Below are positions 2,870 to 53,821 of a DNA stretch of 64,000 bases, piece after piece (the stretch's first letter is position 1; each line of letters opens with the position of its first letter). The notes beneath the pieces are model-generated. The model did not search any database. It was not told the origin of the DNA and worked only from the letters and a program-made list of their open reading frames with translations. The translations under genes and the position numbers were made by a program. The DNA comes from Physcomitrium patens (Eukaryota > Streptophyta > Bryopsida > Funariales > Funariaceae). The stretch spans positions 16,420,733-16,484,732 of the forward strand of contig NC_037257.1 of assembly GCF_000002425.4 (NCBI RefSeq), read 5' to 3'.

Positions 2870-3446
2870 TACTCAAGGTTCTTATAATCTGTATATATTG
2901 TAATTGGACTTGAAGCACCTTCTAGATAATGATGCCATTCTTAAAATAAATCCACAATTACAAGAAGTTTTTTGTTGCAGATCTCATAGTTAATCTTGAC
3001 TGCTAAAAATTTCTTGGAATAGAAAGCTTCTAGAGGGAGTTTGTGATTTGTTTCCATTTGAGAAAATATTACATCTAAGGTAAAGTGTGATGCATCTGTT
3101 TTTATAAAAAATACCTTAGAAAAGTCAACATGATACAAAATTGGTGCAAAAATAAATTCTTTTTTTAAAGTAAAAAATGATGCTTTTCCTTCTTTATTCT
3201 ACTAAAGTTTATCTTTACAAGTCAAACATGTATATAGAGTTGGAACTTGAGATAAGTTCTTGATAAAGATTTGATAATAATTAGCAAAGCCTAAAAAGCA
3301 TTGCAAATTACTTATTGTTCTTGAAATCTTTCAATCTATAATAGTTTGGACTATCTTTGCATCCATCATAAGGCCTTCATTAGAAATAATATGTCTCAAA
3401 AAGTCAACTTGAGTAGTGTGGAATATATACTTTTTTATCTTTGCGT
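2870..3446 (-). pseudogene. E2 RNase H and RT C-terminal part
   Basis: The minus strand shows a Ty3/gypsy RT-to-RNase H block: a segment like FLGFANYYQIFIKN, then FIKTDASHFTLDVIFSQM (the RNase H entry, normally ETDASDFA) and a decayed [14 protein letters not shown]. The frame stops at 3447, where element B enters, and resumes at 19416 with the catalytic part of the RT. GCGT on both sides of B confirms the join. Confidence 0.8.
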
Positions 3447-4770
3447 TGTCGTATTACGTGTTGTCTTGTTCGGGAATACACTGGGTATCTAGCTGTGGAA
3501 GGTATAGTTGTTTTTGCAAATAACAAAGAAACCCTAATAGATTTTATCCATCTATGAAGTATATAATTGAAATATCAATTTCCAATTATTTAAAAACACT
3601 CCTCATAGTCATTTTAACCATACAATATTCCAATTACTTTATTTCTTTTATAATTAAGTTGTTTTTGTTTTTCTTAACAAGCCCTAACCCTAGCTAGTGA
3701 GCTTTGACAAGCTGTAACTTTTTATTCAACCGTCCACTTAGTGTGAAATTTTGCACCCAAATACCAGTATAAGCCTTCTATATGCTCAAAAAATTTCAGC
3801 CCAACCCAACTTACAGATTGCAAGAAAACGCCCAAAAACCGCACTGATGACACTCGGCCGCAACCTTGAAATTTGATGTAGAAACTCCAAAAGTGATTTC
3901 TCCTTTGTTAACCGTTAACTCCAGCTCAAAATTGAATAGCCGCTTGATCTCCAAATCTTCTATTACCAAGCCAAAAATTACATCGATCCAACCAAAAGAT
4001 CTTCAGATATCACAGAAACCCTATCTAACCCTAGACTGCCAACTTCCGACAACCCTTTGTACTAAAACCCAGATATCTCTTGATTGCATTGTTAGATTTA
4101 CACAAATTTTTGAATATACTTAGCACACCCAACTATCCACACAATACCAAATTTTGACCCATAGATGCTACACGACTTGCACAAACCAATTGAGAATGCA
4201 AACCATCAATGTTTTATATAAAATCCAAAACACCAAAATAAACACTGACTTTGAAAAGCGATTGCTCTCCCCTCACAAATCCTAATGAAACCAAACTAGT
4301 GACCTTGAAAAGAGCTTGAAGCTAGCTCTTCGATCCAAAAAAAACCCGATTGAAAAAACCCCCATATTTTGCCCTAGGCGGCCGTTTTAGTGGCTGAAGG
4401 TCAGATTTCGACCCTATCTCATATCCGGCCGACCCCCGGATATCAATTTAATCTATCCTAGTGGTTTTTTAGCCCGATCCTACCCTCAACTTAACCCTAG
4501 TATCAACCATGCTAATAAATTATCCTTTTTATCCATTTTTTACCATTTTATGGCCTTTCTAAGGCAATAAAAAAGTTACTACAGCCTAGAAGGTAAAATT
4601 ACTAACTAGTTTTTATCTACTAGCTATTAAGTGAAGAAAATAGGATTAGAGGCTTTTATAAAAGCCTTGTAAAATATATTGAATACTTGTTGAACCATGA
4701 TAATAGAATATTAATTAAAGTATCATTTTTTTGTCATATTTTCACCATATAGTCGTGTCACAACACGACA
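3447..4770 (-). repeat. B 3' LTR
   Basis: Ends are TGTCG and CGACA. In the element's sense the LTR opens with a perfect short hairpin (TCGTGT-loop-ACACGA, 4753-4768 on plus). A palindromic TTTATAAAA box lies near 4650. The plus-strand ORF at 3866-4123 lies wholly inside this LTR and has no recognisable domain. The copy at 18091-19415 is nearly identical. Confidence 0.93.
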
Positions 4771-4786
4771 TCCACCCTCTCTTAAC
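4771..4786 (-). other. Polypurine tract of B
   Basis: The reverse complement reads as a run of A and G (AAGAGAGGGTGGA) ending directly at the TGTCG of the 3' LTR. This is the expected place and composition for the plus-strand DNA primer, and it fixes B on the minus strand. Confidence 0.75.
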
Positions 4787-5433
4787 CTGCACATCCTCCG
4801 ATATGTGCCAAATTCAGTACACCATTATTCTTTATCCAATACCAAAAATCCATGTATCCATCTTGTACAAGTAAATTGGAAACATCCAACTTTGTATATG
4901 ACCAAACCATTGGCGAGGTACAAATTTTGAAATGGAAAGATTTAATTGAAACTTCTTCCATATGGCCACATACATCTTACTTGCATCTTTTTTCTTGTTC
5001 CTTTGATTCCATGCTTGATTTAAGACGTCCATATAATCCTTAAATCCATTGCCCATGTCTTTATATTTGAAGATTTTTAGATTTTCAATATTTGAATTCC
5101 ACACTTCATGATGATTCTTTTTCTTATCAAAATCCAATTGTGCCCCCAATACATGTACATTATCCATGTAACCTTGATCTTGGTCCAAAAGATTAGTACT
5201 CACAATTAACTTGATTAAAGCCATTGATTTAGTACCTTTACCTTTGATTCCATAATCTTCTTTCGCCACATTATCTTGTGAAATATCTATCATTTCTTCT
5301 TGAATGTATCCTTGTAAAACATCCTTCATTTCTTCTTGAATGCATCCTTATGAAACATCATAACCTTGTGTTATTTCAATATGTTGTATTACTTCATAAT
5401 ATTGAAAAATTTCATAGCCTTGTGAAACCTCAT
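4787..5433 (-). pseudogene. B gag-like frame, C-terminal part
   Basis: The minus frame continues that of 16744-17833 across the A1 insertion (ATGAG duplication in this sense). It opens with acidic, Tyr- and Gln-rich imperfect repeats (units such as IQEEMKDVLQGY), then a stretch ending at 4832 with no domain I recognise. There is one stop near the join. No zinc knuckle, protease or RT is seen before the polypurine tract, so the element ends with gag. Confidence 0.6.
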
Positions 5434-6209
5434 TGTAGAATAAGTAGTTATTTGCTGATTTGTAGATACTTAGTTTATAGTGTAAACAGGGATAGATGAC
5501 TGTTGGAAAGGTAGTTCAGTAGTTAAAATGGATGAATAGTTAGGAAAAGCAGTTTTTATTAGAGATGTAGCAGTTGATATCTCGTGGTATGATAAGGAGG
5601 ATGAGAGAGAAGAAGAAACGGCCATTACTGTGATAGTGTGAGCCGGGATAAGCTTGGTGCTACCTCTTTTCTTTTGTTGCTATGTTCTTTGAAATAAGAG
5701 TATTGAGAGTTTCTGAATATTGTGAAGTGAATCATGGAATGAAAGTGTGATTGGAATTATATGTTATTGAATGAGAAGAAGAGAGATTGAATGCTGAAAT
5801 CTGAATGTAGTTCAGCAGAAAGAGTGAGTCTGTGGTTGTGTGAAACACTGTAATGTGAATGGTAGTTATGTGTGAAGAATTCCAGTAATTGGAATGAGGG
5901 TAATTGTGTGCTGAAGCTGTGATGTTGCGGTATTACAGTTGGAGATTATAAGAGTGAAGATATATTGGTGGAAATAATAGTTATTGGTATGACTGAATTG
6001 TTGTAAAGAAGAGATTGATAAGGTGAAAGGAGAGATTATAGTTTTCTTGTGTGCTTAGACAATGGAAATAGAGACGATACATTGGAGGTAATTAATTATA
6101 TGACTCTAACGTGAACGCTTAAGCAATTAGTCACTCCCCGTGTTCGGATTCCCTTATACAGGTTTATTCTGGGAGGTTCCTTTTAGAATAAGTAAAACGA
6201 TCAACCACA
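5434..6209 (+). repeat. A1 5' LTR
   Basis: Starts TGTAGAATAAG and ends ATCAACCACA, with the primer-binding site three bases downstream. The conserved block GAGCCGGGATAAGCTTGGTG (about 5641-5660) recurs in every A LTR in the window. It helps in reading the C insertion at 45129, which broke exactly this block. Confidence 0.95.
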
Positions 6210-6211
6210 TT

Positions 6212-6229
6212 TTGGCGCCGCTGTCGGGG
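6212..6229 (+). other. Primer-binding site of A1 (tRNA-Asp type)
   Basis: TGGCGCCGCTGTCGGGGA lies just after the 5' LTR. It matches the complement of plant tRNA-Asp 3' ends (TGGCGCCGTTGCCGGGG) with two changes. Athila and related plant elements commonly use this primer. Confidence 0.88.
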
Positions 6230-6321
6230 AGTGATAATAGCTTTGAGTGTTACGAATTAATTACAAACGTGTAAGAAAATGGGCAATGGAAGACGATTTT
6301 AGTAGTGTTTGAAGAAAGATT

Positions 6322-6894
6322 ATGGTTAATAAAAATGAGAGCATTGCATCGAAGAAATTAAATCAGTTGAGAGAAAGGTAGGGAAGAGCGCAAGGAAGGA
6401 ACTTGTGTAGAGAGGAGCAAGAACGTAATCTTAAAAGGAAGCATCGACAAAATTGGATTAAACCATGGTTGCAAGCTTGTTGGCGCATCCGAACATATCA
6501 AAAACCAGACAGACTGTTAATTCTGCAGTCATATGTACCGTTAGAAAAACTGCCAAGAACACTCGTGGGAAATTTTGTTAACATTGCAGTGGAAATTTTG
6601 AGGTCGTTAACTCAAAGAAGAGGAGGCATAGAAGTATTTGGTACTCCATTGGATAATTTTTTAGTAGAGGGTATTGCTGAAACAAGCAATAGGGGCTCTA
6701 CAGATTGGCATGAATTGGTCGCCAATAAAGGCAACTATATCGTATTTCAAAATCTGACTTTTTCACCTACAAGTCAACCAACAAAACTATTTGCGGAGAA
6801 TAACAGTAAAGCAAGGACCGCTGAGAGCTCGGTAATTAGAGTAAGAGAAAGCAGAGATTATTTTAAAATAAATTTCAGAGGAACAAAAAATTCA
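6322..6894 (+). pseudogene. A1 pre-gag domain
   Basis: The start is taken at ATG 6322, because A2 begins the same way (MVxKNE) at 30109. About 190 codons follow, with one stop (6376) from a likely CAG/CGA change. The N-terminus is very basic (KRKHRQNWIKPWL); then comes a conserved block YVPLEKLPRTL and a C-terminal DWHELVANKG motif. The frame runs into gag without a break here, whereas A2 has a stop at the boundary. I do not recognise the domain. The basic part could bind RNA or act in nuclear entry (inference). Confidence 0.6.
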
Positions 6895-8570
6895 ATGGCG
6901 GCAGGAGGACCAGCCGTTCCAATTGCAGTTCAAATGGGTACCTTGGGCGATCATACGATTAACGTCGCACCATTACCTACTTTTCATGGTTAACCAGGTG
7001 CGGACGAAGATCAACATTTGTCTCAATTCTTGATAACGTGTGTAGTCAATAATGGAAGGACAGAAGACATTTGGGTGAGATGGTTGCCAGCGACACTAAA
7101 AGACACAGCGTTCGAGTGGTATAACCGCCAACCTGTAGGTCAATTTATCAATTGGGAGGCATTGAAAATGGCATTTTTAGCCCATTTCCGACCAATTGGT
7201 TTTGAAGAACGTCTTCGAGAAAGATTAATGAACAGCACAATGGTACCAGGGGAAGCGGTACAGTCATATTATGGTCGTGTAGCAGATATACTTCGGAAAT
7301 GGCCAAATAACCAAATGTCGGAATCGTTTGTATTGTCCATATTGGTTAATGGATTACACCCACCAGAATTGAAGATGTTTGTAAAGGAGGCCCAATCAGC
7401 TACCATTGCAGCATCTCTTGAGCGAGTAAAAGTATGGGAGGAATGTCATTACGACCAGCACTTAACCGTTGGCACCACGATGATTCCATCGCAAGGCGGT
7501 TATCAAATGATAAATTGGAATGACGCATCGAAAAGTTATCCGGGAAGGAGTGATTATGGTACAATTCCACAGGGAATAGTGAATGCTGTTCCATTGCAGG
7601 CTGTACTACCATCATCGTCACAACCATATGTGCCTTATTCCGCATATCAAAAATCAATACCTACAAAGGAATTGACCAATGAATTGGTATCAAGGGATCC
7701 CAATGAGTCATTGCTGTTAACATTAACGAAGAAAATAGATGAATTGGCTGTGAATCTGCCCAAGGATAAAGAAAAAAGGCATAAACCGATCAATATGCGA
7801 CCCAATGTTTGGTGTAGCAATTGTAAGGGACAAGGTCATTTGGTAACCGAATGTTCTTCACCACCCCAAATGATGGTTCTATGTATCTTTTGTGGGGGTA
7901 AGTAATACCATTGCCAATTGTTGGAACTTAAGGAAACAATAATAAGTCGGACAACAGACCATGAGTCAATCAACTTCGTGGGATGTAAATCAAGTACAAA
8001 TGAATAATAAGTTCAGCTGGAATGGAAATCGAGTGAATAAACAAAACAGGAATTATTCCAATTTCCAAAACTCTAAATTTCACCAAGAAGGTGTATCCAA
8101 TACCTATGGCTTGGAGCTGAATCAGCAAGGATATCATCAATATTCAACCATGCAGAAGCCAATGCCAGAATCTACAGTACCAATGGGTCAACCAGGATCC
8201 TTCACTCAACGGACATGGAATAGACCGAGCCGTTATATACCAGTAGAGATACCCAATATCCCTGAAGGAGCTGGCAGAAGACCACTTCGTTGCTATCAAT
8301 GTAGACAAATTGGACATTATGCGAGTGAATGTCATAATCCAAGAGCAAGTGATGATTATGCCCCAATATGTGGAAATTGTAAGCAGTCTGGTCATACTTA
8401 TCAGCAGTGCAATGCGGCATTTAATTATAATAACCGTGACTAGCAGATGCAAACAAGCCAGCCGGCGGAGGACAAAGGTCCTGTTCAACGGGACTCACTA
8501 GTACATTGCGTCGAGGTGGTGAACGCAGTGCTTACCAGGGGCCAATAAAAAGGCAAGAATCTAATTCAGG
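6895..8570 (+). pseudogene. A1 gag (capsid and nucleocapsid)
   Basis: The capsid part (6895-7450) has the retrotransposon gag signature: AFEWYNRQPVGQFINWEAL, then MAFLAHFRPIGFEERL. Two zinc-knuckle regions follow: CSNCKGQGHLVTEC (about 7810) and CYQCRQIGHYASEC (about 8291), with a second knuckle CGNCKQSGHTYQQC right after. Defects are a stop near 6991, a one-base frameshift near 7905 (A2 is in frame at the same place), and stops at 8442 and about 8548, both CAG/CAA to TAG/TAA. The intact protein would package element RNA. Confidence 0.88.
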
Positions 8571-8611
8571 ATCTGGATGACCCAATCGAAGTAACAACAG
8601 TAGCGCCGTCC

Positions 8612-11353
8612 ATGAGGCGAACCGAACCAATACCAGTATTGGACCATATTCCAGTATTGGAACCTCAACAAGACGAGGAATCCAATTCAGTTTCACGTGC
8701 CAAATTTCTAAGGACATCAAGATCAATTCAAAATGACCCCGTCCCAATACCTGCACAACCCAATGTAAGCTCGTACCTATTGAAGGAACCTTTAGTGGTA
8801 GAAGAGTCGACTAAGAGGAAGGAATTGCTGCCGAATAGAGTCAAAACGAAACCAATGAAATGCAAAAGAGCATTGGGAGTTACTCTCAATATGCAACCCT
8901 ACGACATATTGAAGGATTTGGATGTTATCCAGCCTTCAATTACAATGAAGCAACTTTTGGCTGTAGCACCGAAATGTCGATCAATATTGAATTCAGTGTT
9001 AGTACGGCAAAGATCCCGCACTAAAGAAATACATGAAGTTAGCTTAAACCCAGATCCGGGAGCACCAACAATTGATGTATCAATCGATGGAGTTTTAATT
9101 CTAGGAGTACAAGTCGATGGTGGCTCCAGTGTGAATTTAATGAACACTGATACAATAGAAGACTTGGATCTAAAGCAATTGCTCCCTACGACATTAGTTT
9201 TGCGAATGGTAGATCATAGTCGGGTTAAGCTGATGGAAATCTTACGCGATATTGCCACTGTAATCGCGGGATTGACATACAAAATTGATTATGTTGTATT
9301 TCGGTTACAGAGTTCTACGTTATCGTATCCCATTTTATTGGGCAGACCTTGGTTGTATCAAGCCAAGGCTAAAAACGATTGGGACCGTGGCACATTGACA
9401 ATTGGAAAAGGTAGTGACCAGATTGTTCTACAAATGTACCCGGTACAATATCACGGAGAAACCCTATTGCCTAAATCAGAATTTACATCGGATAACAAGA
9501 GTCACTCGATTGAGGAAGATGACGATGCTATAGTTTCACCACAATTTGGAGCAGGTCAAATTCCTTCAACAACCAAAGGCGGAGTCTACCAATGTGGTGG
9601 CCCCGGCGAATATTTACTGCATCAGGAGGATACCTCTAACTCGGATCATATTATTATCGAATGGATGATCCGATATGATGTCAATCATGTGAGTGCAATG
9701 CAGTCAAACATGAGTCACTGGCAGTTGCAATCTCCTTCGCACGACGACGGGCCAACATGCGATTTTAAATCAGCGGCTGTGGAAGAACCTGTTTTCCAGA
9801 CTCTGAACTTAGGCACCCCTGACGCGCCCCAGAATATAAAGATATATAAGGGTATTCAAGATAACAAATTGAGTCAGTGGAAAGCATTCTTCCTCCGGCA
9901 TAAATCATCCTTTGCTTGGACGTATGCAGATCTGAAGGGTATTCTAGAAACGGTGTGTGAACATCGTATTACATTGGTTCTGGATGCTACACTAGTTCGT
10001 CAAAGACAACACCGTCTCAACCCAAAATATTCCTTGATGGTAAAGGAGGAATTGGACAAATTATTGCGCGTGGGATTCATTTATCCGATTCCGTATAGCG
10101 AATGGGTCTCACCAATGGTAATGGTATCTAAGAAAAATGGCAAGATTAGAATCTGTCAAGATTTTTGGAAACTCTATGCTGCTACCAAGAAGGACTATTT
10201 TCCTCTACCTTTTACGGACAGTATATTGGATGCTCTAGCAAGACACGAATGTTATTCATTTCTGGATGGTTTTTTGGGTTACAATCAAGTCAAAATTGCT
10301 AAGGAAGATCAATCCAAGACTACTTTTACGACAGATTGGGGTACATTTGCATACAAAGTGATGCCATTTGGATTATGCAATGCACCAGCCACATTTCAAA
10401 GAGTGATGACACAGGCCTTTCAAGATTATTTACGAGTGTCAATGGAAATATTCTTAGATGATTTTTGCACTTTCAGTACGACAGCCGATCATTTGAACTG
10501 CCTGAGACAATGTCTAGACCAATGCGATAAGTACGGTATATCGTTGAATTCAGAGAAGTGTCAATTTGGGATCCCCTCTGGAAGACTCTTGGGTCACATA
10601 GTGTCTAGCCGCGGTATTGCTACGGACCCAGATAAAGTAACTCGAATATTGGCTTTACCAAAGCCAGAAACGGTGTCAGAAGTACCTGGCTTTGTGGGCC
10701 ATGTCAGCTATTATCGACGTTTTATTCACTCCTTTGCGGTACTATGTCAGCCATTGACAAATTTGCTAAAGAAACCACTATTGGATGGATCTAGTCCCGT
10801 TTGGACGACAGAATGCAGTGTTGCCTTTGAGGCCTTAAAGCAAAAATTGATGTCTGCACCAATACTGGTTACCCCATGCTGGACGAAACCATTTCAGGTT
10901 TATGTCGATGCATCCAACGTCGCGATTGGATCAATATTGAGTCAGAAGGATGACAATAACCATGATCATCCAATATATTTTACGAGTCGACAATTGGTTA
11001 TGGCCGAACGCAATTATAATACTACCAAGCTAGAAGCCCTCGGCATGATTTATTCTGTACAAAAATTCTGCCATTATCTACTGGGCTACCCGTTTGTGTT
11101 CCACGTTGATCATGATGCGCTTAAGTATATGATAAATAAATCCCAATTGAGCGGACGAATTGCTCGCTGGGTGTTACTTCTCCAGGAATTCAATTTTACA
11201 ATTAATATTCACCCTGGCAAGACACATGCTAATGCAGATCACTTGTCCCGTTTATCTAATATACTGGATAATGATCCGATAAACGACGCCCTTCTGGATG
11301 CACAATTATTCGCTGTGGAGGTTATTACACCTGAATATGGTGACCTGATCTAA
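8612..11353 (+). pseudogene. A1 protease, reverse transcriptase and RNase H
   Basis: A 913-codon open stretch. The protease has VDGGSSVNLMN (about residue 165), which fits the DxG[AS]S form of Athila/Tat elements rather than the usual DSGA. The RT runs from about residue 460: KIRICQDFWKL, TTFTTDWGTFAYKVMPFGL, and the active site IFLDDFCTFS (FLDD in place of YxDD, as in Athila). RNase H begins at YVDASNVAIGSILSQ and ends with HANADHLSRL. The next codon after residue 913 is TAA, and the frame then continues into integrase, so this is one domain block of a longer polyprotein. Confidence 0.92.
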
Positions 11354-12583
11354 TATCTCATATTTCAGACTTTTCTAATTTCTTATAATGAAAAATTAAA
11401 GAAGCGTCTGATTATAAGAAGTACGCCATATACCATGATTGGAGCCGCATTATACAAACAAGGACGGGATGATATTTTACGACGTTGCATATTTCCAAGT
11501 GAAGTGTGTACCATATTGGAAGGATGTCATTTGGATAGCTGTGGAAGACATTTTGCGGATGATAGCACCGCGCGTAAAGCTTTAATGGCTAGTTATTGGT
11601 GGCCAACAATGTTTTCGGATGCTCACAAATATGTTCGTCGTTGTGACCCTTGTCAACGAATTGGTTGACCTACTGGAACTTCTGCAATGCCATTGGTACC
11701 AGTTTTGGTGCAGGCACCATTCGAAAAATGGGGTATTGATTTCGTCGGACCAATTGCACCTACTTCTCGGAATGGACAGAAACGTCATATTTTAGTAGCC
11801 ACCGATTATGTCACCAAATGGGCGGAGGCTACGGCAACAAAAACTGATAATGCCACTACTGTAGCAATATTTTTATATGAGAACATTATCACTTGTTTTG
11901 GTTGTTCGAAAGAATTGGTTAGTGATCGAGGAACCCATTTTATTAATGCAACCATTGAAGCATTGACAACGAAGTATGAGATCAAGCATCGAAAAACTAC
12001 CCGTTATCATCCACGTGCCAATGGATAGACCGAAAAGACCAACGGTATCCTTTGTAAAATCTTAACAAAGACTATTTCAAGAGCGGGAACCGATTGGGAT
12101 ACTAAATTATTTGCAGCATTGTGGGCATATCGAACTGCGTTTAAAGTAACGACCAATTCCACATCTTTTCTATTGGTATACGGGCAGGAGGCCATCTTAC
12201 CAATAGAATTGGAGGTTCTCAGTTTAAGAATTGCATTGGAAGAACGGTTGGGTAACAAAGAATCTCTCCAATATCGATTAATAGAATTGAAAAAATTGGA
12301 TGAGATTAGGGCTTTGGCTTTGATGACCACGGAAGCTATTCAGAGCCACCGGAAGAGTTATTACGATAGTAAACTCCGCACAAAATCATTTATGCCCAAT
12401 AATCTTGTCCTGCTGTACGACAGCCGTTTTCACAATTTCTCGAGAAAATTTCAAATTCGGTGGCATGGACCCTATCGCGTATTGGCACCCTTTCCCAATG
12501 GTTTCGTCTAATTGGAAGATTTCACAGGAACCAAATTCACAACCCGTATCAATGGAAACCGACTACGCCTGTATTATACATAA
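11354..12583 (+). pseudogene. A1 integrase
   Basis: Same frame as the RT. The HHCC finger is seen (CHLDSCGRHF then CDPCQRIG). The core has WGIDFVGPIAP (first Asp), VSDRGTHFINA (second Asp) and RANG*TEKTN (catalytic Glu kept, but the preceding Gln codon is now TAG at 12026). Other stops are TGA at 11666 (from CGA) and TAA at 12509. The C-terminal part has LLYDSRFHNFSRKF and GPYRVL. No chromodomain follows. The terminal TAA at 12581 is conserved in A2 (42881) and A3 (50490). Confidence 0.9.
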
Positions 12584-12869
12584 ACCCGGGGGCGAGTTTA
12601 TCAAGATTGGAGGGGGCAAACGTGCCATTCATGATGACTTGCCTGCCATCATAAGTGTCTAATCGGAGGCAAATGAGAGTGGTTGATTAGTGTATTAGAA
12701 CATCAGCAATCAAGATTAGGGATTCTTGTTTCATAACTGGTTAAACAGTTAGGAGAGGGGCACTCTGTGTAGCTGCCTTCAATATTTGTCTAGAATTGTT
12801 GAAGCACAGTTCGTTAGTGGAGAGTTTATGGCAAATCATAGTATTATTGTAAATACGCAGAGCTTTATA
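12584..12869 (+). other. A1 spacer between pol and ORF3
   Basis: About 286 bp with no convincing coding signal. The equivalent spacers are 321 bp in A2 and 338 bp in A3. It is the natural place for a promoter, splice acceptor or internal start feeding ORF3, but I cannot identify such a signal by eye. Confidence 0.5.
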
Positions 12870-14240
12870 ATGTCAAGGGAGAAGGTGAAGAGAGCCTCGG
12901 AGAAGGAGGAAGAGGGTAGAAGGATGAGGTCAAGGAGTAATATGGATGAGCTTTCTCTTTGTATACTCACAAATATGGAACCCATGCGGTTAGAAATTTG
13001 CTGGAATGCAACGCGGCAGAAGGATTTTAGAAGTGCACAGCTATATCCTTTTCTGCGAGCGACAGACAATTTACCATCAATCGACGTAGAACTATTGGAA
13101 GAATACTTGACAAACTATGATCCTGAGGATGGTTCGAGTGTTGTAAAAGGAAGGACTTTGGGAATTGATGAGAATACCTTGCATAAGGCATTACAGTTAC
13201 TAATAGGAGAGTTAGCGGTTGGGGCAGAAGAGTCTTCAGACTTCAATCTGGGGAGTTATTTTAAAGGAGGTATGACGTCCCTAGAAAGGAATCAAGGATG
13301 GCGGACGGCGGATGCACTTACATCAGAATTGATAGAGTGGATGTACTTCGTTCAGAAGAGGTTGGAATTAAATAGACATACGATGTATATGGCTAAACGA
13401 TTATTATATGTGACAATAGGCTCCTTCGAGGGTATGGTGTTTAATTGGGCAGCGTACGTGGCCACCAGAATTCATGCAGAGTTGAGTTACAAGCGTAGGT
13501 CAGGTAGAATTGCAACGCTTCTGTGTTCCAATTATATACAGTCTGCAATAATTTATGAGTTGAGTCAACCGTTGCCAGAGAAAGGGAAGACGATAGCAGC
13601 TCCAGTACTACCGAAATCGAGGAGCAATTTATTGACACTTCCATAGGGACCAGGAGAAACAAGCCAGCAGGCGGGAGAACCAATCAGTGTTCGGAAGAGA
13701 GGTCCAATGGTTCAGAGAGACAATAGGCCAGTGGACATTCAACATCGAACACCAGAGGAGAACAGTGTGAAAGAGCGATTTTTGATACAATTATCTCAAT
13801 TGCAGCAGACCACAAATGAATTGGTTGATCACACGAATTTTAAGCAGCAATTGGTGGCGTGTAAGAGGGAAATGGGAGAACAATGTCAAAAACTGTTGGA
13901 ACAAGATCGGATGAATAGGGCCACCAAAGAAGCCAATTCGAGAATGGAGCATGCCCTTGGAGTAAAACAGCAAGCGTGGAAAAAGGAAAGAGAGCGCCTT
14001 CACTAAGGAATGGCGCATTAGAAACAAGAACTCTCCAATTCTCTGAATCAATCAAAACTGGAAGTTGAGAAAATGAAGCAACAATTGGAATTGAACCAGA
14101 TGAAGATGGTGACTTTGGAACAAGAAAAGAAGACGATGAGTGACCAATTCAGAGTGAAAATAGAGGAAATGCAAGGGGAGATCAACACTCTGAAGGAGGT
14201 TGCAAAGAAATTGGAGGAAGAATTGGTCAGCGTTCAACGG

Positions 14241-15650
14241 TGTCATATTACGTGCTTTCCTGCTCGAGAACACGCCGGGCGTTTGGCTGTAGAAGGTAGT
14301 ATGGAGATTCGCCGATAGTCAAGCAGTCTATCAGTTTTGATTGCTGGAATGTAAACGACTGCAATAATGTACCGTAAATCTATACGGATGCTCTTCGACT
14401 ACTTGTCGAAGTCCTTTTTGCTCCAGCCGGTAGGTCTCTAGACGTTACAGAGAACCCTGAACAATCCAAATTGTTAATCTTCAATACCGCTTTGTACTTA
14501 CGATCTTGTATCCACTGACTGTCTTGTTAGATTAACCCAATAAATTTCATTCACTCCGCATACTCAATCCTATAGACACCCTTTTAATCCTTCAATCACA
14601 GACGTAACTCGATTTCACAAAACAGTCAAGAGTATTCAAACCCACTTCATTAAAAATCTCGATTCACCATTACAATACTGACTTCAGCAGCGATTGCCTC
14701 AGTCTTCCCAAAACTCTATGAAGAAGAAAAACCAAATTCTATGTCTTTCCTTCCCCGACCCGAAGCATGAAGCTCCTCTCTCTAATCCCCTTGATCTTCA
14801 AAAAAACCTCCAATGAAAACCAAACTAGTAACCTTGCAAAAGCTTGAAAAACTAGCTCCCCGATTCCAAGAAAAAAAAAACCCCCCAAAACTATTCTCTC
14901 TCCTAACCTTATCCTCTAAATTTCTTCAATCTTTCGTCTTGGATCCGGAATTGGCTCTCGCCATCAAGGCTTAGATCCGAAATTGGCTCTCGCCGTCAAA
15001 GCTTTTCTCCCCTCGTTTTTATCTTTAAGAGATCCTTTTATCGAAAACAACGTTCCCTGAAACAGCACAGAGAATAGGACAGCCCGAAACAGAATCAAAA
15101 CCTCGTAATCGGGACCACATTCAGTCGCCCAACCAATTCAGGTCCCATATTGGATAAGATGCCCGTAATAATCTGGATGTTTGTATAATTGGACCAATTT
15201 GGTCCTCGCGTCAGATTGGCTAAGACCCGTAGTAAGACCTGGATTTCCCGTAATTAGATTGCATTGGATTGACCGGCCAATTCAGGTCTCATATTGGATA
15301 AGAGTCCAGTAGTAACCTGGATGTTCCCGTAATTGGGTCTGCATTGGATTGCCCGGCCAATTCAGGTCTCATATTGGGTAAGAGGACTTGGATTGGATTC
15401 TCGAAATTAGATCCAATTGGCTCTTCGAACCCGTCGTGTAAATTGGTCCTTCTCTTCCTGCTGACTCCCTTTATTGGAATTGAATGGAGCATTTTAGTAT
15501 GCCCCAAATGACTGTAACGGGGTGACTGAACCTGGCCACTCAGTATTTGTACAGGAGTTGGTCGATGCTCCCAATATTCGAGGTAACTGAATATTAATAA
15601 AATTCCCCTTTTTTTTTATTTTCACTGTATACTCGTGTTATAACACGACA
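14241..15650 (-). repeat. Solo LTR of the TGTCG family, in A1 ORF3
   Basis: Starts TGTCATATTACG and ends ACACGACA, with the 4-bp duplication ACGG on both sides (14237-14240, 15651-15654). It matches the B LTR at both ends, including the terminal hairpin (TCGTGT-TATA-ACACGA), and is oriented the same way as B. The centre differs from B: it carries tandem repeats at about 15131-15420. Removing it restores the ORF3 frame exactly. Confidence 0.93.
15131..15420. repeat. Tandem repeats inside the solo LTR
   Basis: About four diverged units of roughly 60-85 bp, each opening like CCAATTCAGGTCTCATATTGG and continuing with a GTAATAA/CCTGGAT block. They start near 15131, 15190, 15276 and 15356. The B LTRs have at most one remnant (TCTCATATCCGG near 4420), so the array expanded in this subfamily. 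Position within the LTR would suit an enhancer-like U3 array (inference). Confidence 0.7.
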
Positions 15651-15949
15651 ACGGCCACAAGGGTCAATTGAAGGTTCAATTGAAAAATTAGAACAGAAGG
15701 TGAAGCAACAACAATACCAATTAGAGGCAAAAGATACCCGAATTCTGCAATTGGAAAGTCAAGTCCGTGAATTGGGAGCACTTAATGAAGATTTAATGGC
15801 CAAATTGAACATAATCCCAATAAATGTATCAGACGGGGAAGACAAAGAAGTGACTTTAGAATTGTAATTAGTAGCTATGAATATGGGCAATGCTAAGGAG
15901 TCATCAGTTCTTGTTTCGAACTGGTTGTTTACGAAGACGCTGCACAGTT

Positions 15950-15962
15950 AGGAATGGGGCTA
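15950..15962 (+). other. Polypurine tract of A1
   Basis: AGGAATGGGGCTA abuts the TGTAG start of the 3' LTR. The same tract, AGGAGTGGGGCTA, sits before the 3' LTR in A3, and its reverse complement follows the A4 LTR. In A2 the equivalent reads CGGAGTGGGGCTA. Confidence 0.75.
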
Positions 15963-16738
15963 TGTAGAATAAGTAGTTATTTGCTGATTTGTAGATACTT
16001 AGTTTATAGTGTAAACAGGGATAGATGACTGTTGGAAAGGTAGTTCAGTAGTTAAAATGGATGAATAGTTAGGAAAAGCAGTTTTCATTAGAGATGTAGC
16101 AGTTGATATCTCGTGGTAGGATAAGGAGGATGAGAGAGAGGAAGAAACGACCATTACTGTGATAGTGTGAGCCGGGATAAGCTTGGTGCTACCTCTTTTC
16201 TTTTGTTGTTATGTTCTTTGAAATAAGAGTATTGAGAGTTTCTGAATATTGTGAAGTGAATCATGGAATGAAAGTGTGATTGGAATTATATGTTATTGAA
16301 TGAGAAGAAGAGAGATTGAATGCTGAAATCTGAATGTAGTTCAGCAGAAAGAGTGAGTCTGTGGTTGTGTGAAACACTGTAATGTGAATGGTAGTTATGT
16401 GTGAAGAATTCCAGTAATTGGAATGAGGGTAATTGTGTGTTGAAGCTGTGATGTTGTGGTATTAGAGTTGGAGATTATAAGAGTGAAGATATATTGGTGG
16501 AAATAACAGTTATTGGTATGACTGAATTGTTGTAAGGAAGAGATTGATAAGGTGAAAGGAGAGATTATAGTTTTCTTGTGTGCTTAGACAATGGAAATAG
16601 AGACGATACATTGAAGTTAATTAATTGTGTGACCCTAACGCGAACGCTTAAGCAACTAGTCACTCCCCGTATTCGAATTCCCCTATACAGGTATATTCTG
16701 GGAGGTTTCTTTCGGAATAAGTAAAACGATCAACCACA
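15963..16738 (+). repeat. A1 3' LTR
   Basis: Same length as the 5' LTR (776 bp) with about 25 base differences, most of them C/T or G/A. It ends ATCAACCACA and is followed by the target duplication CTCAT. Confidence 0.95.
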
Positions 16739-16743: not shown

Positions 16744-17833
16744 GTTCTTGAAAAATCTTGCAACTTTCACCATAATCTTTTTTACCACCATGAGATGTTC
16801 CATCCAAATTTCCATCATCCACTTGCATAAACATATTCAATGTAGAATAGCCATAATTTTCATTGTTATTGTCATTAATTTCTAAATCCTTGAGTTCCAT
16901 ATTGCCTTCAATTTTTTTGATATTTTGACCTTCCATAGTAATAATTTGATCAAAGTCTTTGTTCTTTCCTTCACCATCCTTGATAAAAGATCCACTTTCT
17001 TTCATTTGCAAAAAATTGGCTCCTCCTTCGAAGTCCTCCAGTTGCTGTTCTATTTCTCTTTTTTCAAGATTAATCCCTTGTATTGATAAAGATGATATAG
17101 AAGCCAAAGTAGAAGATTTCTTAGACCATATTCCAACTCCTTTAACTTGTGCTCTTTGTTGCTTTGCTAAAAGAATTGTTGCTTCTTTCAACTCTTCCCA
17201 ATTATTAATACAACCACTCTCCGTAGACTCATGTGCAAGAAGTATAAAAAGTTTGTCTCCCATGGCATCATCAAGACCATTTAAAAATAATTCTATTTTT
17301 ATAGCATCCAATGACTGTCTCTCTAAGGATGACAGTTGATAAAACCTCTTTTCAAATTCTTTCAGGAATTCATAAAGATCCATATGCGTGCCTAGTTGTA
17401 ATTCTATCTAATCCAAAAACTGTCGCTTGGTAATCTTATCCTCATTTGCATCAATAAATTCTTTCTTCAAAAGTTCTTGAAATTTTGACCATGTCTCCAC
17501 ACCCCTTTCAAGTAATCTCTTCACCTTTTTATGAATCCCAGGTTCAATAGCCAAATAAAAGCTTGAAATCATCTTTGCCTCAGGGATTTCGCATGTCTCC
17601 ATCTCACATGTATAAACTTGTAAAAACTTAGTGATGTTGCATCCGTTAAACCTCCCAAATTTGTTGAAAATTTCTTGTAATGCCTTTGTGATATTCCTTT
17701 CAATTGCTTGTATCTTTTTTTGTTCTTCCATAAATATACAAAAAGCCTCAAAAAACTCTTTAACATTTGGTCCATCCAAAGTATTCAACCTATCCAAAGA
17801 CTTCATTGAAATATCTTCCATTTTCTTCCACAA
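16744..17833 (-). pseudogene. B gag-like protein, N-terminal and middle part
   Basis: The minus frame starts at ATG 17833. It is clearly related to the gag of element C: KFGRFNGCNITKFLQVY here, against KVGRFDGRNITKFLRVY there, and FIDANEDKITKRQFLDWI against the C equivalent. Around 17402 the frame has one stop. A capsid-like helical region is followed by acidic, Asn-rich sequence. The frame ends at A1's target site. The zinc knuckle seen in C is not evident. Confidence 0.8.
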
Positions 17834-18090
17834 TGTTAAAAAAATATCCCTTGAAATGCTCCAATAAATAACTTATGATACCTCAAAATGCTCCAAGATG
17901 TCTATAAAGCCATAATATACTCCATAATAATCCAAATATCACCATTGCTTTTCAAAATATCCTCCAAAGCTCCAAGTCTTCCAAAAACTCTAAAATCAAC
18001 CTTGTCACAGATTGCACCATCAATCCAAATAACCACATAAAAAATCCAATACCTTCCACCCCAAACGTTTCACGTCGGGTTCACCACTTA
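17834..18090 (-). other. B leader with primer-binding site
   Basis: In the minus sense the LTR end CGACA is followed by a four-base spacer (TAAG) and then TGGTGAACCCGACGTGA (18070-18086), the expected place and form of a primer-binding site. I cannot assign the tRNA with confidence. The rest of the leader up to the gag ATG at 17833 holds nothing I recognise. Confidence 0.65.
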
Positions 18091-19415
18091 TGTCGTATTA
18101 CGTGTTGTCTTGTTCGGGAATACACTAGGTGTCTGGCTGTGGAAGGTATAATTATTTTTGTAAATAACAAAGAAACTCTAATAGATTTTATCCATGTATG
18201 AAGTATATAATTGAAATATCAATTTCCGAGTATTTAAAAACACTCCTCATAGTCATTTTAACCATACAATATTCCAATTACTTTATTTCTTTTATAATTA
18301 AGTTGTTTTTGTTTTTCTTAACAAGCCCTAACTCTAGCTAGTGAGCTTTGACAAGCTGTAACTTTTGATCTAACCGTCCACTTAGTGTGAAATTTTTCAC
18401 CCAAATACCAGTATAAGCCTTCTATATGCTCAAAAAATTTCAGCCCAACCCAACTTACAGATTGCAAGAAAACGCCCAAAAACCGCACTGATGACACTCG
18501 GCCGCAACCTTGAAATTTGATGTAGAAACTCCAAAAGTGATTTCTCCTTTGTCAACCGTTAACTCCAGCTCAAAATTGAATAGCCGCTTGATCTCTAAAT
18601 CTTCTATTACCAAGCCAAAAATTACATCAATCCAACTAGTAGATCTTTAGATATCACAGAAATCCTATCTAATCCTAGACTGCCAACTTCGGACAACTCT
18701 TTGTACTAAAACCCAGATATCTCTTGATTGCATTGTTAGATTAACACAAATTTTTGTATACGCTTAGGACACCCAACTATCCACACAATACCAAATTTTG
18801 ATCCATAGATGCTACACGACTTGCACAAACCAATTGAGAATGCAAACCATCAATGTTTTATATAAAATCCGAAACACCAAAATAAACACTGACTTTGAAA
18901 AGCGATTGCTCTCCCCTCACAAATCCTAATGAAACCAAACTAGTGACCTTGAAAAGAGCTTGAAGCTAGCTCTTCGATCCAAAAAAAACCCGATTTGAAA
19001 AAACCCCCATATTTTGCCCTAGGCGGCCGTTTTAGTGGCTGGAGGTCGGATTTCGACCCTATCTCATATCCGGCCGACCTCCGGATATCAATTTAATCTA
19101 TCCTAGTGGTTTTTTAGCCCGATCCTACCCTCAACTTAACCCTAGTATCAACCATGCTAATAAATTATCCTTTTCATCCTTTTTTTACTATTTTATGGCC
19201 TTTTTAAGGCAATAAAAAAGTTACTACAGCCTAGAAGGTAAAATTACTAACTAGTTTTTATCTACTAGCTATTAAGTGAAGAAAATAGGATTAGAGGCTT
19301 TTATAAAAGCCTTGTAAAATATATTGAATGCTTGTTGAACCATGATAATAGAATATTAATTAAAATATCATTTTTTTGTCATATTTTCACCATATAGTCG
19401 TGTCACAACATGACA
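18091..19415 (-). repeat. B 5' LTR
   Basis: Nearly the same as 3447-4770, with TGTCG and a slightly changed end (ACATGACA). It is followed by the duplication GCGT at 19416-19419, matching the other side of B. Confidence 0.93.
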
Positions 19416-19419
19416 GCGT

Positions 19420-20864: not shown

Positions 20865-22070
20865 TGTCAGTGTATATTTCATCCCTCTATCCAAATTACC
20901 AGATGGCTTCAATTAAGAGTTTCTTATAATAGATAGTATGAAGTCAAAGATGCAATGAACAAGAACAAAAGGAGAAACAACACAAACAAGTGAAAAGAAT
21001 GTATACAAGCAAATATACACTCCAAAACTCTATCACAGTCTGTTCACGAAATTTTTATCCAATAAAAAAAATAAAAATAAAAATAAAAAGTATATTTTTA
21101 GGAAGTTAATTTTTTAAGCTTTCCAATCATATAAGAAACTTATAAATCCGAATTACTATGAGTAAGTTATGAAGGTTTAAATAATAATAAGTAAATAAAT
21201 AAAAGTTAAGTAAAAATATTTTACCTCAAGGATAACTTACTTATAGGTCAAGGGTTCGAGCCTCACCAAGGTTCACATGTAGTATATATTAGTTGTCTTA
21301 AGAGGCCTTGAGGCCTTAGTCTTATCTTCCTACCTATACCCAAGGTGCTACAACCCATATGGGACTTGTACACCTTTCTTCCTACAAGGACTAGACTAGC
21401 TGTTGGTCCTCCTATTTTCTACTAGTAAAACTCATTTTTTTGTATTTTTGACTTCATCATGGTGTTTAAAAACACCCAATTAGCTTAAGAACTTGATGTG
21501 GCCTTTAAATCTTACTTCCTTTCTTTATAATGGCTTCCAAAATTATAAAATTTATTTTTACCAAGATCTTAAATATTGCTCTAAAAATTCCTAAAAAATT
21601 TTAAATAAAATTTAAATAAATTTTGAAAAATCCTATAATATTTCTATAATGCTAATATCCATGTAAGGCTATATTTTCCTACCTTCTTAATTTTCAATAA
21701 TAATAAACACCAATTTAAATCTACTATTAATCCTATTTTTATATCAATAATTAAAATGACATGAGGTTCTTTCTCATGCTTCTTCTAACTACTAATATTT
21801 ATAGTTTTTATAAATAGTACATATAGATAGAACACTAATATAAATATTGGTCTTAATAAATAATCCTTAATACTCAAAAATAAATAAAAATACTAAATCA
21901 ACAAAGATAATTTCCTCTAAGACTTACTAAGATTCTATCTCCACCACTAATATTCTAATTTTCTATTTTTCAAAGGATTTCTATACTACTCACTATATAT
22001 TGTGTTTTAAAGCATTCTAAATGCATATTTTTATTCTAAAACAACAAGTGGGTCAATTTGATGGCTCATA
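20865..22070. repeat. Solo D LTR (i), in E2 gag
   Basis: A 1206-bp copy of the D LTR in the reverse arrangement (starts TGTCAGTGTATATTTC, ends GATGGCTCATA; family ends are TGTGAGTG and CACTCACA type). Flanks are CATAT and AATAT, a 5-bp duplication with one change. It carries GGGTTCGAGCC at 21252-21262, like a pol III B box. Nothing in it is coding. Confidence 0.88.
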
Positions 22071-23923: not shown

Positions 23924-23927
23924 GCGT

Positions 23928-25187: not shown

Positions 25188-25191
25188 GCGT

Positions 25192-35970: not shown

Positions 35971-36042
35971 CTTGAATTTATCATCACTAGCATGTTGCTT
36001 GATATCAAGGGCTAGAGAATCTTCAATGGTTGCGGCCCGTAC

Positions 36043-40146: not shown

Positions 40147-40151
40147 CGAAG

Positions 40152-45128: not shown

Positions 45129-46379
45129 TGTCGTACTGTAATTACTTACAGTATGTAAAAATTAGTGAAAACATGTAATATGTTTATAAGTCTTAATGTG
45201 AGTTAGAATAGTTAGTATGTTAATTTAAAATGAATTGAAATAAGAAAAATTATTTGAAAGTTAATCTAGTTTGATCATAGAGATTATATTATATAGGATT
45301 TAGATAGTTAGTATAAAGATTAAGGAAAGGGAGGAGTTAAAAGATGAAAATATAACTAGAAGGAGGCTTATTGGAAAGGATGAAAGTAAGGCATGGTTGG
45401 ATGAAGGCAAGGGGTGAAGAACTTCATCCCTATTGGTCGAATACCATGCCCAATGGGCTTTGAGGAGGCTGCCCGAGGCCATATTAGGAATTAGGGTTCC
45501 TCTTTCGAGGCCATTCGAGCTTTTGAGGCTAGGGTCAGAAGGTTTAGGGTTTTGGATATAATTTGGGTGAAGATTTTGTATGATTTCGAGTTTTTATGGA
45601 AAAGATATGAATGTTCAAAGATAAGGTGTCAATTTCATACCTACTGTCACTTCTTTTGGGCATCACATACGAATACGGAGAGCAACGGAAGATCGGCGAC
45701 TGAATTTGGAGGGAGCATTTTCTCGGCTATACATTCTACTTACTGTATAGTGAATTCTAAGATTGGGTGAACAAGTTATGAGGCGTTGAAGACAGCACTT
45801 GTAATTTGAAGGCAGTAAGTATATCGTTTTGTTGCTAGTTATGGGTGAAGCCATATCTTGAGTTTCTGGACGAATTTTTGGCTCAAAATTTCCACAAGTG
45901 TGTGTAATTGGGTTAAAAAGATTTAGATAAAAGTTTCATAGTATTTGAATAATTACTTTGTCAGATATGAAGGAAGTTGTACACGGGTGTAAAAAAGCTA
46001 GGGTTTGAAGCTACAGTTAGGGTTTTCAAGATATCACAAGATCCAAGACGAATTTACGGTTGAATTTTGGTGTGGTAGTTGCTAACAATATATCAGTACT
46101 CCATGTAAAATTTGGAGTTGTTTAGACGGTTAGATCGTATGTTATGAGCTGTTGAACTTCGGGAAAAATTCCTCATAAGGATATATAAGTTTTTTATAAC
46201 ACCTTATCAAGTATTTTGGTGTTCTTTGGATTTTAAGGCTTGTATATTGATGTAATTTCTCCAAAGGAGAGGAGTTTATATATATAAAATTGTTACCTTT
46301 ATATTTCAAACTTGATTGAGTATTTAGTGACAGCCAGAAGCCCAGCGCTTTCTTGAGGCAAACTCTCTCTACCCCGACA
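45129..46379 (+). repeat. C 5' LTR
   Basis: 1251 bp, TGTCGTACTG to ACCCCGACA. A perfect start hairpin, ACTGTAA-TTAC-TTACAGT, replaces the one in B. TATATATATAAA at 46277-46288 is the likely promoter box. It matches the solo copy at 23928-25187 and, in reverse, the centre of the solo LTR at 51324-52655. Confidence 0.92.
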
Positions 46380-46383
46380 TATT

Positions 46384-46402
46384 TGGTGCTTCTACTGAGA
46401 GA
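46384..46402 (+). other. Primer-binding site of C
   Basis: TGGTGCTTCTACTGAGAGA begins four bases after the LTR, the same spacing as in B. The tRNA is not identified by me. Confidence 0.55.
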
Positions 46403-46435
46403 GCCTTAAGGCACTAAAATTCTCAATAAGTTAGA

Positions 46436-47620
46436 ATGGAGGATCAAGTTCCAGGGTTTGGATTACCAAGTGGAGTAGGTGCTCATGATTTATTCAGGGC
46501 ATTTGCTCAATTTATGGAAGAAAGGCAATAGGTGCATGGGGAGGATAAGAATACTACCAAAGCTTTACAAGTAGTGGTGGATAAGGTTGGGAGGTTTGAT
46601 GGGAGGAACATCACTAAGTTCCTCAGGGTTTATATATGTGAAATGGAAGTGCATCAGGTTTCAGAAGTAAAGATGATTTCTACCTTTGATTTGGAAGTGG
46701 TACCAGAAATCAGAGAGAGGGTGCAAGAGTTGCATACTGAGACTATATCATGGAAGAAATTTGAAGAACTCTTGAAAGATGAATTTGAGGAAGATTCAGA
46801 AAGAATGACAAAACAAACTTTTTTGGATTGGATTGAGCAAAGGCCAAGGAATCAAATGGCTCCCAATGAATTAATCAGGGAATTTGAGGCTAAGTTTGGA
46901 TAGTTACCACGACAAGAGAGGCAGCTTTTGGAAACAAGGAAGATTGGATTGTTTTTACAAGCAGCTGATGAACATTTGGAGGATAAGCTACTCTTTTATC
47001 TAGCAGACAAGACATCTGAGAGTGGTTTTACTAATGATTGGAAGCTAGTAAAAGAGACAGTGGGACTTTTGGCTAGGCAACAAAAGATTAAGACTCGTGG
47101 ATTATTACCAAGGTTGGAGCCAATGCATGCATCTCAAAATCTAATGCCACCTCAAAACGGAATCAAGACTGTTAAGGATGGTACTCTTGAAGAACTAATT
47201 AAGGGCATACAAGACTTGAAAGTGGAAATGACTGAATTGAAGAAATCCCAGAAGGCAAGCTCATTAAAGACAATTGAAGGCTCAAAGGGATTTATAGAAA
47301 GATGTATGTGGTGTGACAATCCAAACCATAAGCGTGGTGAGTGTGATAGCTATAAGGTTGCAATCAAGGATGGTATTATGTATTTCAAAGAGGGCAGGAT
47401 AAGACTCATAGGGTCAGATGAGCCTCTAAAGACTAATTTTGGGAAGGGTGGCATGAAAAAATTAGTAGAGGAGCAAACATCAAAGAATAGTGCCATAAAA
47501 GGGGAAGGAACTGAATCTTATTCTATTACAGTTGAACAAAAGGGAGTTAAGGGTGTTTCTTTGCCAACTAAAGGAGTCATGATGAGGGGAGCTGAAGCTA
47601 TCAGAAAGAAAACTAGGTAG
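46436..47620 (+). pseudogene. C gag
   Basis: Starts MEDQVPGFGLPSG at 46436. One frame with stops at 46529, 46901 (both TAG) and 47618. Capsid part KVGRFDGRNITKFLRVYICE, then TKQTFLDWIEQRP and ELIREFEAKFG. The knuckle CMWCDNPNHKRGECD is at about 47305, followed by MYFKEGRIRLIGS and FGKGGMKKLVEE. I know this layout from Ty3/gypsy elements of basidiomycetes and some non-seed plants (memory, not a search). Confidence 0.85.
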
Positions 47621-47656
47621 AATGATCCAGTTGATGCTATTAGTATTAAAGCATAT

Positions 47657-48847: not shown

Positions 48848-48873
48848 AAAGCACCCTTGTAAGATGGGGGCAC

Positions 48874-50492: not shown

Positions 50493-50830
50493 ATCCAAGA
50501 TGGGTTTACTCAGTGGAGGAAGGGAGTCTTTGTAATAATGATTACCTCACAGGATTGGAAAGGTTGTGATAGTTAAGAAACAATTGATGGTTAGTTTTGG
50601 GTACTGAAACTGACTAGTCAAGTAATTAGACATTCTTGATTAGATGTGAGATTAAAGTACACTAGATTAGATGTTCTTAATTCATACCCCGAGTAAGCAG
50701 TTAGGAGTGGGGCATTCATAATAGGTTTCATTGTTGCAAATTTCAGATATTGTACTTTGAACTATAAGCTTTACCTCAGTAATCAGCAATAGTGTTAGCG
50801 AGAGGAAGTATTGAGAGTTTGATTTTCACA
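50493..50830 (+). other. A3 spacer between pol and ORF3
   Basis: 338 bp of AT-rich DNA. Near 50670-50710 there is AGCAGTTAGGAGTGGGGCAT, like the polypurine tract before the A LTRs; a similar tract (GTTAGGAGAGGGGCA, about 12750) occurs in the A1 spacer. This may be a second, central polypurine tract. Confidence 0.5.
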
Positions 50831-53821
50831 ATGTCGATGGAAAGAGCGAAGAGAGCATTGAAATAATCAAAAAGTTGCCGCAATGTGAGGTCTAAGTGCG
50901 ATCTGGGATCGCCGTCTCTTGTAGTTATCACCAACATGGAACCGATGAAGTTAGATATCTGTTGGTCATTGAAAAGACAAAAAGAATTTAGAAATGCACA
51001 GTTATTTATATTTTTTCCAGGATTGGATAAACTACCACCAATTGATGTAGAACGAGTGGCAAAATATATAGAAAATTAAAAATCCAGATGATGGTTCGAG
51101 TGTGGTAAGAGGAGTCCTGATTGGGATAGATGAGAATATCTTACACAAGGTCTTGCATTTACCAACCGGAGAGCTTGAGGTAGGAGGAGACATGTCAATT
51201 GACTTCTGGCAAGGAAGCTACTTCAAAGGAGGAATTTCGTCTATCGAGCGAAATCAAGGTTGGAAGGTACAAGAGGCACTTACTCCCGAACTTATGGAAT
51301 GGATGCGGTTCGTTCAGAAGCGGTGTCGTATGGCGTGATTTTCTATCTGGGAATACACCGGGTATTTAGCTGTAGAGAGTTTAGGTTTCTTTTTTATATA
51401 ATGCCTTAGCTCCCAAAAACAAACTCCTTGCTTTGTATAAAAATTCAAAATATCTTAAAATTCTTCAAAATATATTTCTTCCCGCCAAGGACCTTTTTAC
51501 ATCAGACTTTGAAAATTCATAAAAGCTAATCGAACCGTTCACATTGTTTCAAATTTCTACATAAGCTAGATGCTATACTTAACTTTTACCACAAACAAAT
51601 TGAACCGTACATCTATCACCGATCGTTCGGCATCTAAGAAACCCTAGCAGGTGCACAAAACACTAACTTACAAGCACCCGAAAACTATTTTCCTTATATC
51701 TCTTAAACACAAGCTCCAAATCACACAAAACTTGTATAGAAAGCTTTATAACAAGATTACACTCAATCTTGAAAATTTTGAGCTAAAACCTCATCAATTT
51801 GTCTAAGATATAGCTCAAATCACAAGCACAAGTAATTCGGGCTACGTACTACCCTTAGATATCAAGCGCTGACTTCAACTGCCAATATCTCCTTTATAAA
51901 AGCTTGGAATTCGATAAATAGTATGCACAAACTGTAGCCGAAAAAGTGTTCTCTTCAAATCCGGTCGCCGATCCTCGTTTGCTGTCCGTACGCGTGCGGT
52001 ATGCTCAAAAGAGTGACAGTACGTCGAAAACTTACACCTTAACTTTGAGCGCCTATAACTTCTTCATATAAACCCCAAATGACACAAATTTTGCACCAAA
52101 ACCATATCCAAAAACCTAAACCTTCTGACCCTAGCCTCTAAAACTCGAATGCCGCGAGAAACTAACCCTAATCCCTAATATGGCCTCGGGCAGCCTCCTC
52201 AAAGCCCATTGGTCATGATTTTTGACCAATAGGAATGGAGATTTTTATTATTTATCTCCATTCATCCATATTGGTGCCCTAATTAATCCTTTTGCTACCA
52301 AAACCCCCTTCTTCATCCCTTTTCTTATAAGATTTTTACAATGAGTCTTTTTGACACCAAATAAAAAATCCAAAAGAAGTTTTCAAAGGTCACCAATGTC
52401 TAACAAAGGTGATCCTAATTATTTAGAAGTCACTATGAACTAAACCAATCTTAAAAGCCACTATGAAAAAGAAATCAAAGTTATAAAAATTCTATAGTAA
52501 CCTTTTTAAACAACCTCTTCTCAAAGTAATAATCAAATTATATCCTACAACCAACTAAAATCTACTAACATGGCTCTTACCATGTTACTTAATAAATTAT
52601 ATATTAAGTACATAATTACATTATTTTCATATAGTAGCCGAACCACAACACGACAGCGGTTAGTATTGAATCGACATACCACCTACATGGCAAAGCGATT
52701 ACTATTTTTCACAATAGGAACAATGGAAGACATGGTATTCAATTGGGCAGCTTATGTGGCCACAAAGATACATGCAGAAATAGGAGCTAAGCAAAAGACG
52801 GGAAAGTTTGCTTGACTATTATGTTCCAATTATGTAAACTCAGTGATTGAGTATACATTGAAACAAGAATCTCAACCAGTAGTTTCAAGTTTATAAATGG
52901 AAACAGTTAGTCCACAGATAATAGTATATGAAGTGGGAGAATCTAGCAAAGCGGCAGAACGGGAAGCAAGACTAATATCTATATCAGAGGGAGTTCTAAT
53001 TTGGCTGACAATAGAGATGATGATACCAATACCAGTTCTAATGGAAAGCAATCAATTAGGGTTTCAATGGGGTGTAATAAAAGGATGGAATCTTAAGGAA
53101 GTTATATTGGATCAAATTTTCCAACTGCAACTTACAATGAGTAAGCTCAAAGATGAGGATAGCTTAAAAAAACAATTGGAAGCGAGCAAGAAAATAATAT
53201 TGGAGCAAAATTGTAAAATCAAGGAACAAGAACAAGTCAACAAGGTAGAATCGGAATCTAAGATGTGAGTGAAGCGTGAATTGGATGAGAGAGTGAAAAA
53301 CTAGTCAAAAGAGAAATAGAAGATTCAGCATATCTTGAAAAATCAAAGGTAAGAATTACTACAAACTCGCAAATCATATAGATTGAAATAGAAGAAGATG
53401 AACGTTTAGTTGAAGATAGAACGAGAGAAGGAGGAAGCATTGGAGCTTAAAAAAAAATAATTGGATGACCAATATCGAAACAAAATAGATGAGCTACAGG
53501 CAAAAATTATTGTTTTGAAAGAAACAGTAATGAAATTGGAGAGTGATTTGGTCAGTGTTGGTCAGTTACAAACATCTGCTTGAATGAAAGTAAGAATTGG
53601 AAAATTAGAGGAGAAATTGCAATAGCAATAGCAGCAACTGGAAGCTAAAGGAACCAGAATATTCTAATTAAAAGCTCAGGTTTGAAAATTGGAAGCGTTT
53701 AATGAAGATTTAATAGCTCAATTAAGGGTAGAGATTCACGACGAGTCAGAGGAAGAAGATATAGTATTGGAACAAGACCAAATAGAGCCAGCGCCAAGAA
53801 TTGAAGAGATTGAAGAATCCA

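Follow-up and report, generated by a model that had tools for sequence, protein, structure and literature searches.

The TGTCG...CGACA elements of Physcomitrium patens are very probably the long terminal repeats (LTRs) and non-autonomous derivatives of a non-chromovirus Ty3/gypsy family that fits Phygy, with an integrase that makes a CpG-centered 4-bp target duplication, VCGB. Sampled genomic copies showed duplications of 4 bp with a CG core, a core shared by copies that encode the integrase, and also cases in which it has changed to TG or CA on one side of the insertion while the other side retains CG. The pattern is real, and an NCGN insertion preference is already in print for the Phygy elements of Physcomitrella patens (Neumann et al. 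2019, PMC6317226, in the portion of that paper available to us). What we add are counts, the refinement to VCGB, evidence of core decay, and a pol-less non-autonomous passenger.

Insertions in the window

The window that we analyzed is a stretch of 64,000 nt from P. patens (GCF_000002425.4, NC_037257.1, 16,420,733 to 16,484,732, forward strand). It holds six LTRs with the head TGTC(G/A) and the tail (C/T)GACA, namely, the two LTRs of element B and the single LTRs C, D, E, and F. Element B, whose sense strand is the minus strand, is an LTR retrotransposon with two LTRs (3447 to 4770, 3' in sense orientation, and 18091 to 19415, 5' in sense orientation) that are 96.7% identical. The primer-binding site (PBS; TGGTGAACCCGACGTG, 18071 to 18086, minus strand) lies 4 nt past the end of the 5' LTR, and the polypurine tract (PPT; AAGAGAGGGTGGA as on the minus strand, 4771 to 4783) sits just inside the other LTR, which it abuts at 4770. 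Nested in B is element A (5434 to 16738, plus strand), a gypsy gag-pol element, and nested in A is the solo LTR D (14241 to 15650, minus strand). Without A, the interior of B is about 2 kb long and contains open pieces without pol, including a downstream open frame (4832 to 5347) and coding pieces with no pol match (16744 to 17872), all on the minus strand. A Pfam scan of three interior pieces gave no match; thus, where we describe B pieces as gag-like, this is a reading by eye. Plant TR-GAG-like non-autonomous elements resemble B by description, as they too combine LTRs, a PBS, and a PPT with a frame that looks gag-like, and lack pol.

Several other features were seen in the same stretch. LTR D contains internal tandem repeats at 15104 to 15384 with a shift of ~78 bp. 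Another gypsy element, on the minus strand at 34660 to 36042, has an integrase with matches to SH3_Tf2-1 and a chromodomain. A repeat of 1.2 to 1.3 kb occurs in five copies on both strands that are ~76 to 96% alike (20865 to 22066, 28040 to 29225, 56053 to 57392, 57713 to 58899, and 59174 to 60375).

The first-pass annotation had claimed four 4-bp target duplications, and all are exact in sequence and position: GCGT on either side of B (3443 to 3446 and 19416 to 19419), ACGG around D (at 14237 and 15651, spanning 14237 to 15654 with the LTR), GCGT around solo LTR E (23928 to 25187, plus strand; duplications at 23924 and 25188, spanning 23924 to 25191), and GCGG around solo LTR F (51324 to 52655, minus strand; duplications at 51320 and 52656, spanning 51320 to 52659). 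The copies match exactly over 4 bp in 4/4 cases and over 5 bp in 0/4, so the claim that a 5-bp length is ruled out holds in the window. CG is at the center of all four despite the scarcity of CpG that the annotation had pointed to (p ~1e-7, given 1200 CpGs in the window). The target of F is present once in each of two paralogous empty sites (AGAAGAGGTT in A and AGAAGCAGTT near 63 kb), with which we compared the joined flanks of F, AGAAGCGGTT.

LTR C (45129 to 46379, plus strand) had been put forward as a fifth, decayed case. The left side bears this out, with GAGTTGG (flank TTGG) where paralogues read GAGCCGG or GAGCCGA (CCGG or CCGA), but the right flank was not comparable, which makes the case weaker than claimed. 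A PBS-like TGG four bases past this LTR is followed by sequence that looks gag-like by eye, and the sequence after C (45129 to 46960 with C included) is related to the B interior (68% over 187 bp). C is therefore probably the 5' LTR of another, E-type element rather than a solo LTR, with a right side that would never have been a target copy; hence, C backs the CG rule only via the comparison of its left flank with paralogues. The further claim, that the other families in this DNA use 5-bp duplications, held for the one element checked, A, which has CTCAT at both ends. The 5-bp contrast thus combines this A element with a published statement that other plant families lack a motif, their duplications being described as highly variable in the accessible part of PMC6317226.

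Copies across the genome

The genome searched comprises 470.4 Mb in 101 contigs. The head of the B LTR (35 bases, up to 3 mismatches) was found in at least 307 places and its reversed control in 0, while a pattern joining the PPT to the LTR head (up to 2 mismatches) was found in at least 2620 places and its reversed control in 1. We then fetched a blind sample of 20 stretches, 9.9 kb each, around the first 20 perfect LTR heads listed, excluding the window's own two; these were chosen by the perfect head alone, with flanks unseen at that stage. The annotation had predicted that TGTCG copies collected genome-wide would show a 4-bp NCGN core, and this prediction held in samples of the copies. Both outer flanks of one solo LTR could be read in 16/20 loci, and the flanks matched exactly over 4 bp in 10/16 and over 5 bp in 0/16. 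A central CG was present in at least one copy in 16/16 pairs and in both copies in 11/16. Among the other loci, L015 is a full-length copy with the flanks ACAT/ACGT, L014 and L017 had no believable LTR end within reach of the sampled head, and the flank shown for L021 is the inner side. The B-type LTRs in these stretches (L009 to L028) fall into two classes of ~1.32 kb and ~1.5 to 1.75 kb, which are alike over ~900 bp from the TGTCGTATTACG end but diverge beyond that, as if U3 had been exchanged.

If the elements simply landed in CpG-rich or repeat DNA without any sequence preference, a CG core would be incidental, and several copies are indeed nested in another retrotransposon, as D and F are in A-type elements. 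Against this, CpG made up only 63/3960 dinucleotides (1.6%) in the 100-bp flanks of the 16 sample sites and 4 window sites. Within ~20 bp, CpG peaked only at the center of the duplication, occurring at offset -3 in 14/16 left copies and at most twice at any other offset. We set chance and CpG-rich context aside on this local background, and the probability that we would leave to them is vanishingly small.

We also examined seven flanking bases at the 100 places listed among 232, of which 12 were on the inner PBS side and 88 were outer flanks. The centers of these 88 listed outer flanks were CG in 64, CA in 10, TG in 10, AG in 2, TA in 1, and GG in 1; since the 88 overlap the fetched loci, this count and the locus count are not independent. 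T was rare as the first base (4/88) and A as the last (6/88) among the places listed, where the search pattern was biased toward A, at the outermost place only. Thus, we refine NCGN to VCGB.

Flanks with CA or TG

A broader rule could also produce these centers: an integrase that, like that of PFV, accepts any flexible pyrimidine-purine (YR) step, be it CG, CA, TG, or TA, would make the dominance of CG only apparent. A YR center is found in 85/88 listed outer flanks, and the PFV consensus contains VYRB (PMC4422553, in the sections at hand). An LTR in the L014 stretch (minus strand, 2602 to 4378) even has CA in both copies (TCAT/CCAT), against the CG rule, which reflects either decay of both copies or an occasional CA target. 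However, a TA center occurred in only 1/88 listed outer flanks although the DNA is AT-rich, and the paired copies point the other way. We fetched the loci of all 20 CA or TG left flanks among the places listed (2 in the blind sample and 18 separately). The partner copy was readable in 9/20, and it had CG in 9/9 (L009, L022, L033, L034, L036, L039, L041, L043, and L046), with two mismatches each in L046 (ATGT versus CCGT) and L039 (CTGA versus CCGG). The other 11 loci comprised six in which the flank is on the PPT side (including L047, on a near match) and five without a believable end in reach. Because the partner has CG in every readable pair, the CA and TG flanks look like decayed CpGs and were most likely CG at insertion. 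On these paired copies we set the wider YR preference aside and regard it as distinctly unlikely.

Across 23 solo-LTR pairs, seven of which were selected for a CA or TG flank, 14/15 mismatches were transitions. Loss of CpG after insertion would be expected to leave just such a pattern, and cytosine methylation may be the cause of the core decay. Two further observations run against the CG rule: 4/88 listed outer flanks have centers outside CG, CA, and TG (AG, AG, TA, and GG), and the pol-bearing copy in L018 has the unmatched flanks GTAC and CCGC.

The coding family

Just upstream of a PPT-LTR junction, locus L029 has two open pieces, one coding for a reverse transcriptase (RT) and RNase H and the other for an integrase core. 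Its LTR head resembles the sense head of LTR D. Pfam matched RT, RNase H, and rve, the last with an E value of 5e-6, under that model's curated cut-off, and the closest solved relatives of the integrase are the Ty3 and PFV integrases. The Pfam scan of L029 found no Chromo match at an E value of 0.01; chromoviruses (Tcn1, Tekay, and others), in contrast, carry a chromodomain after the integrase.

We sampled 15 stretches with a 3' LTR from the at least 2620 places, all on contig C1. Ahead of the PPT, 14/15 have coding sequence for the integrase C terminus that is 83 to 97% identical to that of L029, and the remaining stretch, L048, is the L029 locus seen from its 3' side. The outer flank of the 3' LTR was readable in 13/15 of these contig C1 stretches, and its center was CG in 11, TG in 1, and CA in 1. 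As for the two unread stretches, one LTR runs into another PBS in tandem and one has no end in reach. The former, L057, has a coding 3' LTR running straight into another PBS, a tandem LTR-retrotransposon arrangement. The annotation had proposed an integrase with a CpG preference, and this is borne out by the NCGN core in the window, in the blind sample, and at the coding 3' LTRs.

B and the coding family have the same LTR ends, PPTs that are nearly identical, and a common PBS segment. The segment of B that holds the PBS (48 to 49 bp) is 90 to 92% identical in L011, L017, L018, L024, and L025, and L018 carries, on one strand and in order, a B-like PBS, RT, integrase, and a PPT-LTR junction. These common features make the integrase of the coding family the most likely mover of B, so that the pol-less B would most likely have been moved in trans.

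The same structures bear on another candidate, the Ginger1-like cut-and-paste DNA transposons, which we considered in view of the symmetrical ends of the elements and the parallel in CCGG and CCGT. Ginger1 has a gypsy-type integrase, TGTNR ends, and a GC-centered 4-bp target with a CG core, duplicating CCGG in 75% and CCGT/ACGG in 24% of cases, according to the available text of PMC2836005. It is described there as a DNA transposon with inverted repeats of 40 to 270 bp, whereas the elements here have terminal repeats in direct orientation (~1.3 kb) together with a PBS and a PPT, occur also as solo LTRs, and have relatives that encode RT, RNase H, and integrase. The outer target bases are also far stricter in Ginger1; here, CCGG, CCGT, and ACGG together make up 16/64 CG flanks among the places listed, and ACGT is the commonest at 23/64. 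We therefore reject a Ginger1-type transposon, on the LTRs, PBS, and PPT, as highly improbable.

Discussion

The TGTCG...CGACA family, then, is best read as a Ty3/gypsy family that fits Phygy. Phygy is described as a non-chromovirus clade from P. patens, with short elements and a polyprotein over nearly the whole internal part (PMC6317226, in the text available). Our elements are like Phygy in the NCGN preference, the gypsy pol, the lack of a chromodomain match, and the apparent host. They differ in including solo LTRs and a pol-less element, neither of which is mentioned in the available portion of that paper, and in the narrowing of NCGN to VCGB. Among the papers searched, NCGN as a whole word occurs together with retrotransposon in PMC6317226 alone.

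The annotation had also called the strand-cut spacing unusual. This holds among plant LTR elements, where 4-bp duplications are a minority (6.2% in PMC6317226 and 11.6% in PMC6911290, as given in the parts of both papers at hand), but MLV, PFV, and further members of the same integrase superfamily ordinarily use 4 bp (PMC4422553, available sections). The accessible part of PMC6911290 further indicates that 4 bp is the commonest duplication length in Phygy, Galadriel, and Bryco and that 4-bp duplications pooled over all families have a GC-rich central dinucleotide.

The PFV intasome offers a mechanistic analogy. Its target consensus, KWK\VYRB\MWM, has a bent YR center, and it shares with our family the 4-bp duplication, the palindromic target, and the V and B edges (PMC4422553, available sections). 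PFV has a weak YR preference, in contrast to the nearly exclusive CG found here, so that VCGB is the CG-only subset of VYRB. In our family, the integrase very probably joins each end of the cDNA to one target strand, with the two joints spaced 4 bp apart around a CpG, so that repair leaves the 4-bp duplication VCGB. By analogy, CG would be chosen where the target bends sharply at its center, as it does in the PFV intasome with its 4-bp spacing, and a 4-bp stagger across such a step would account for both the duplication length and the palindromic V and B edges. Restricting YR to CG would require either that the integrase reads the bases or that CpG has some property of its own. A bolder and rather doubtful extension is that the integrase reads CpG itself, perhaps methylated, as a near-absolute core and not just as a step that bends easily. 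It would then be a natural CpG-specific integrase that steers the family into methylated transposon islands, and Ginger1 transposases may share this recognition by descent.

Collectively, the raw sequence confirms an exception among plant retrotransposons that the literature mentions in brief: the CpG core at which this integrase inserts is almost fixed. An insertion leaves behind two identical CpG sites, each of which then decays on its own, and such pairs could be used to track how CpG is lost. A CG-only restriction of VYRB would make this integrase useful for asking how retroviral-type integrases pick their target bases.
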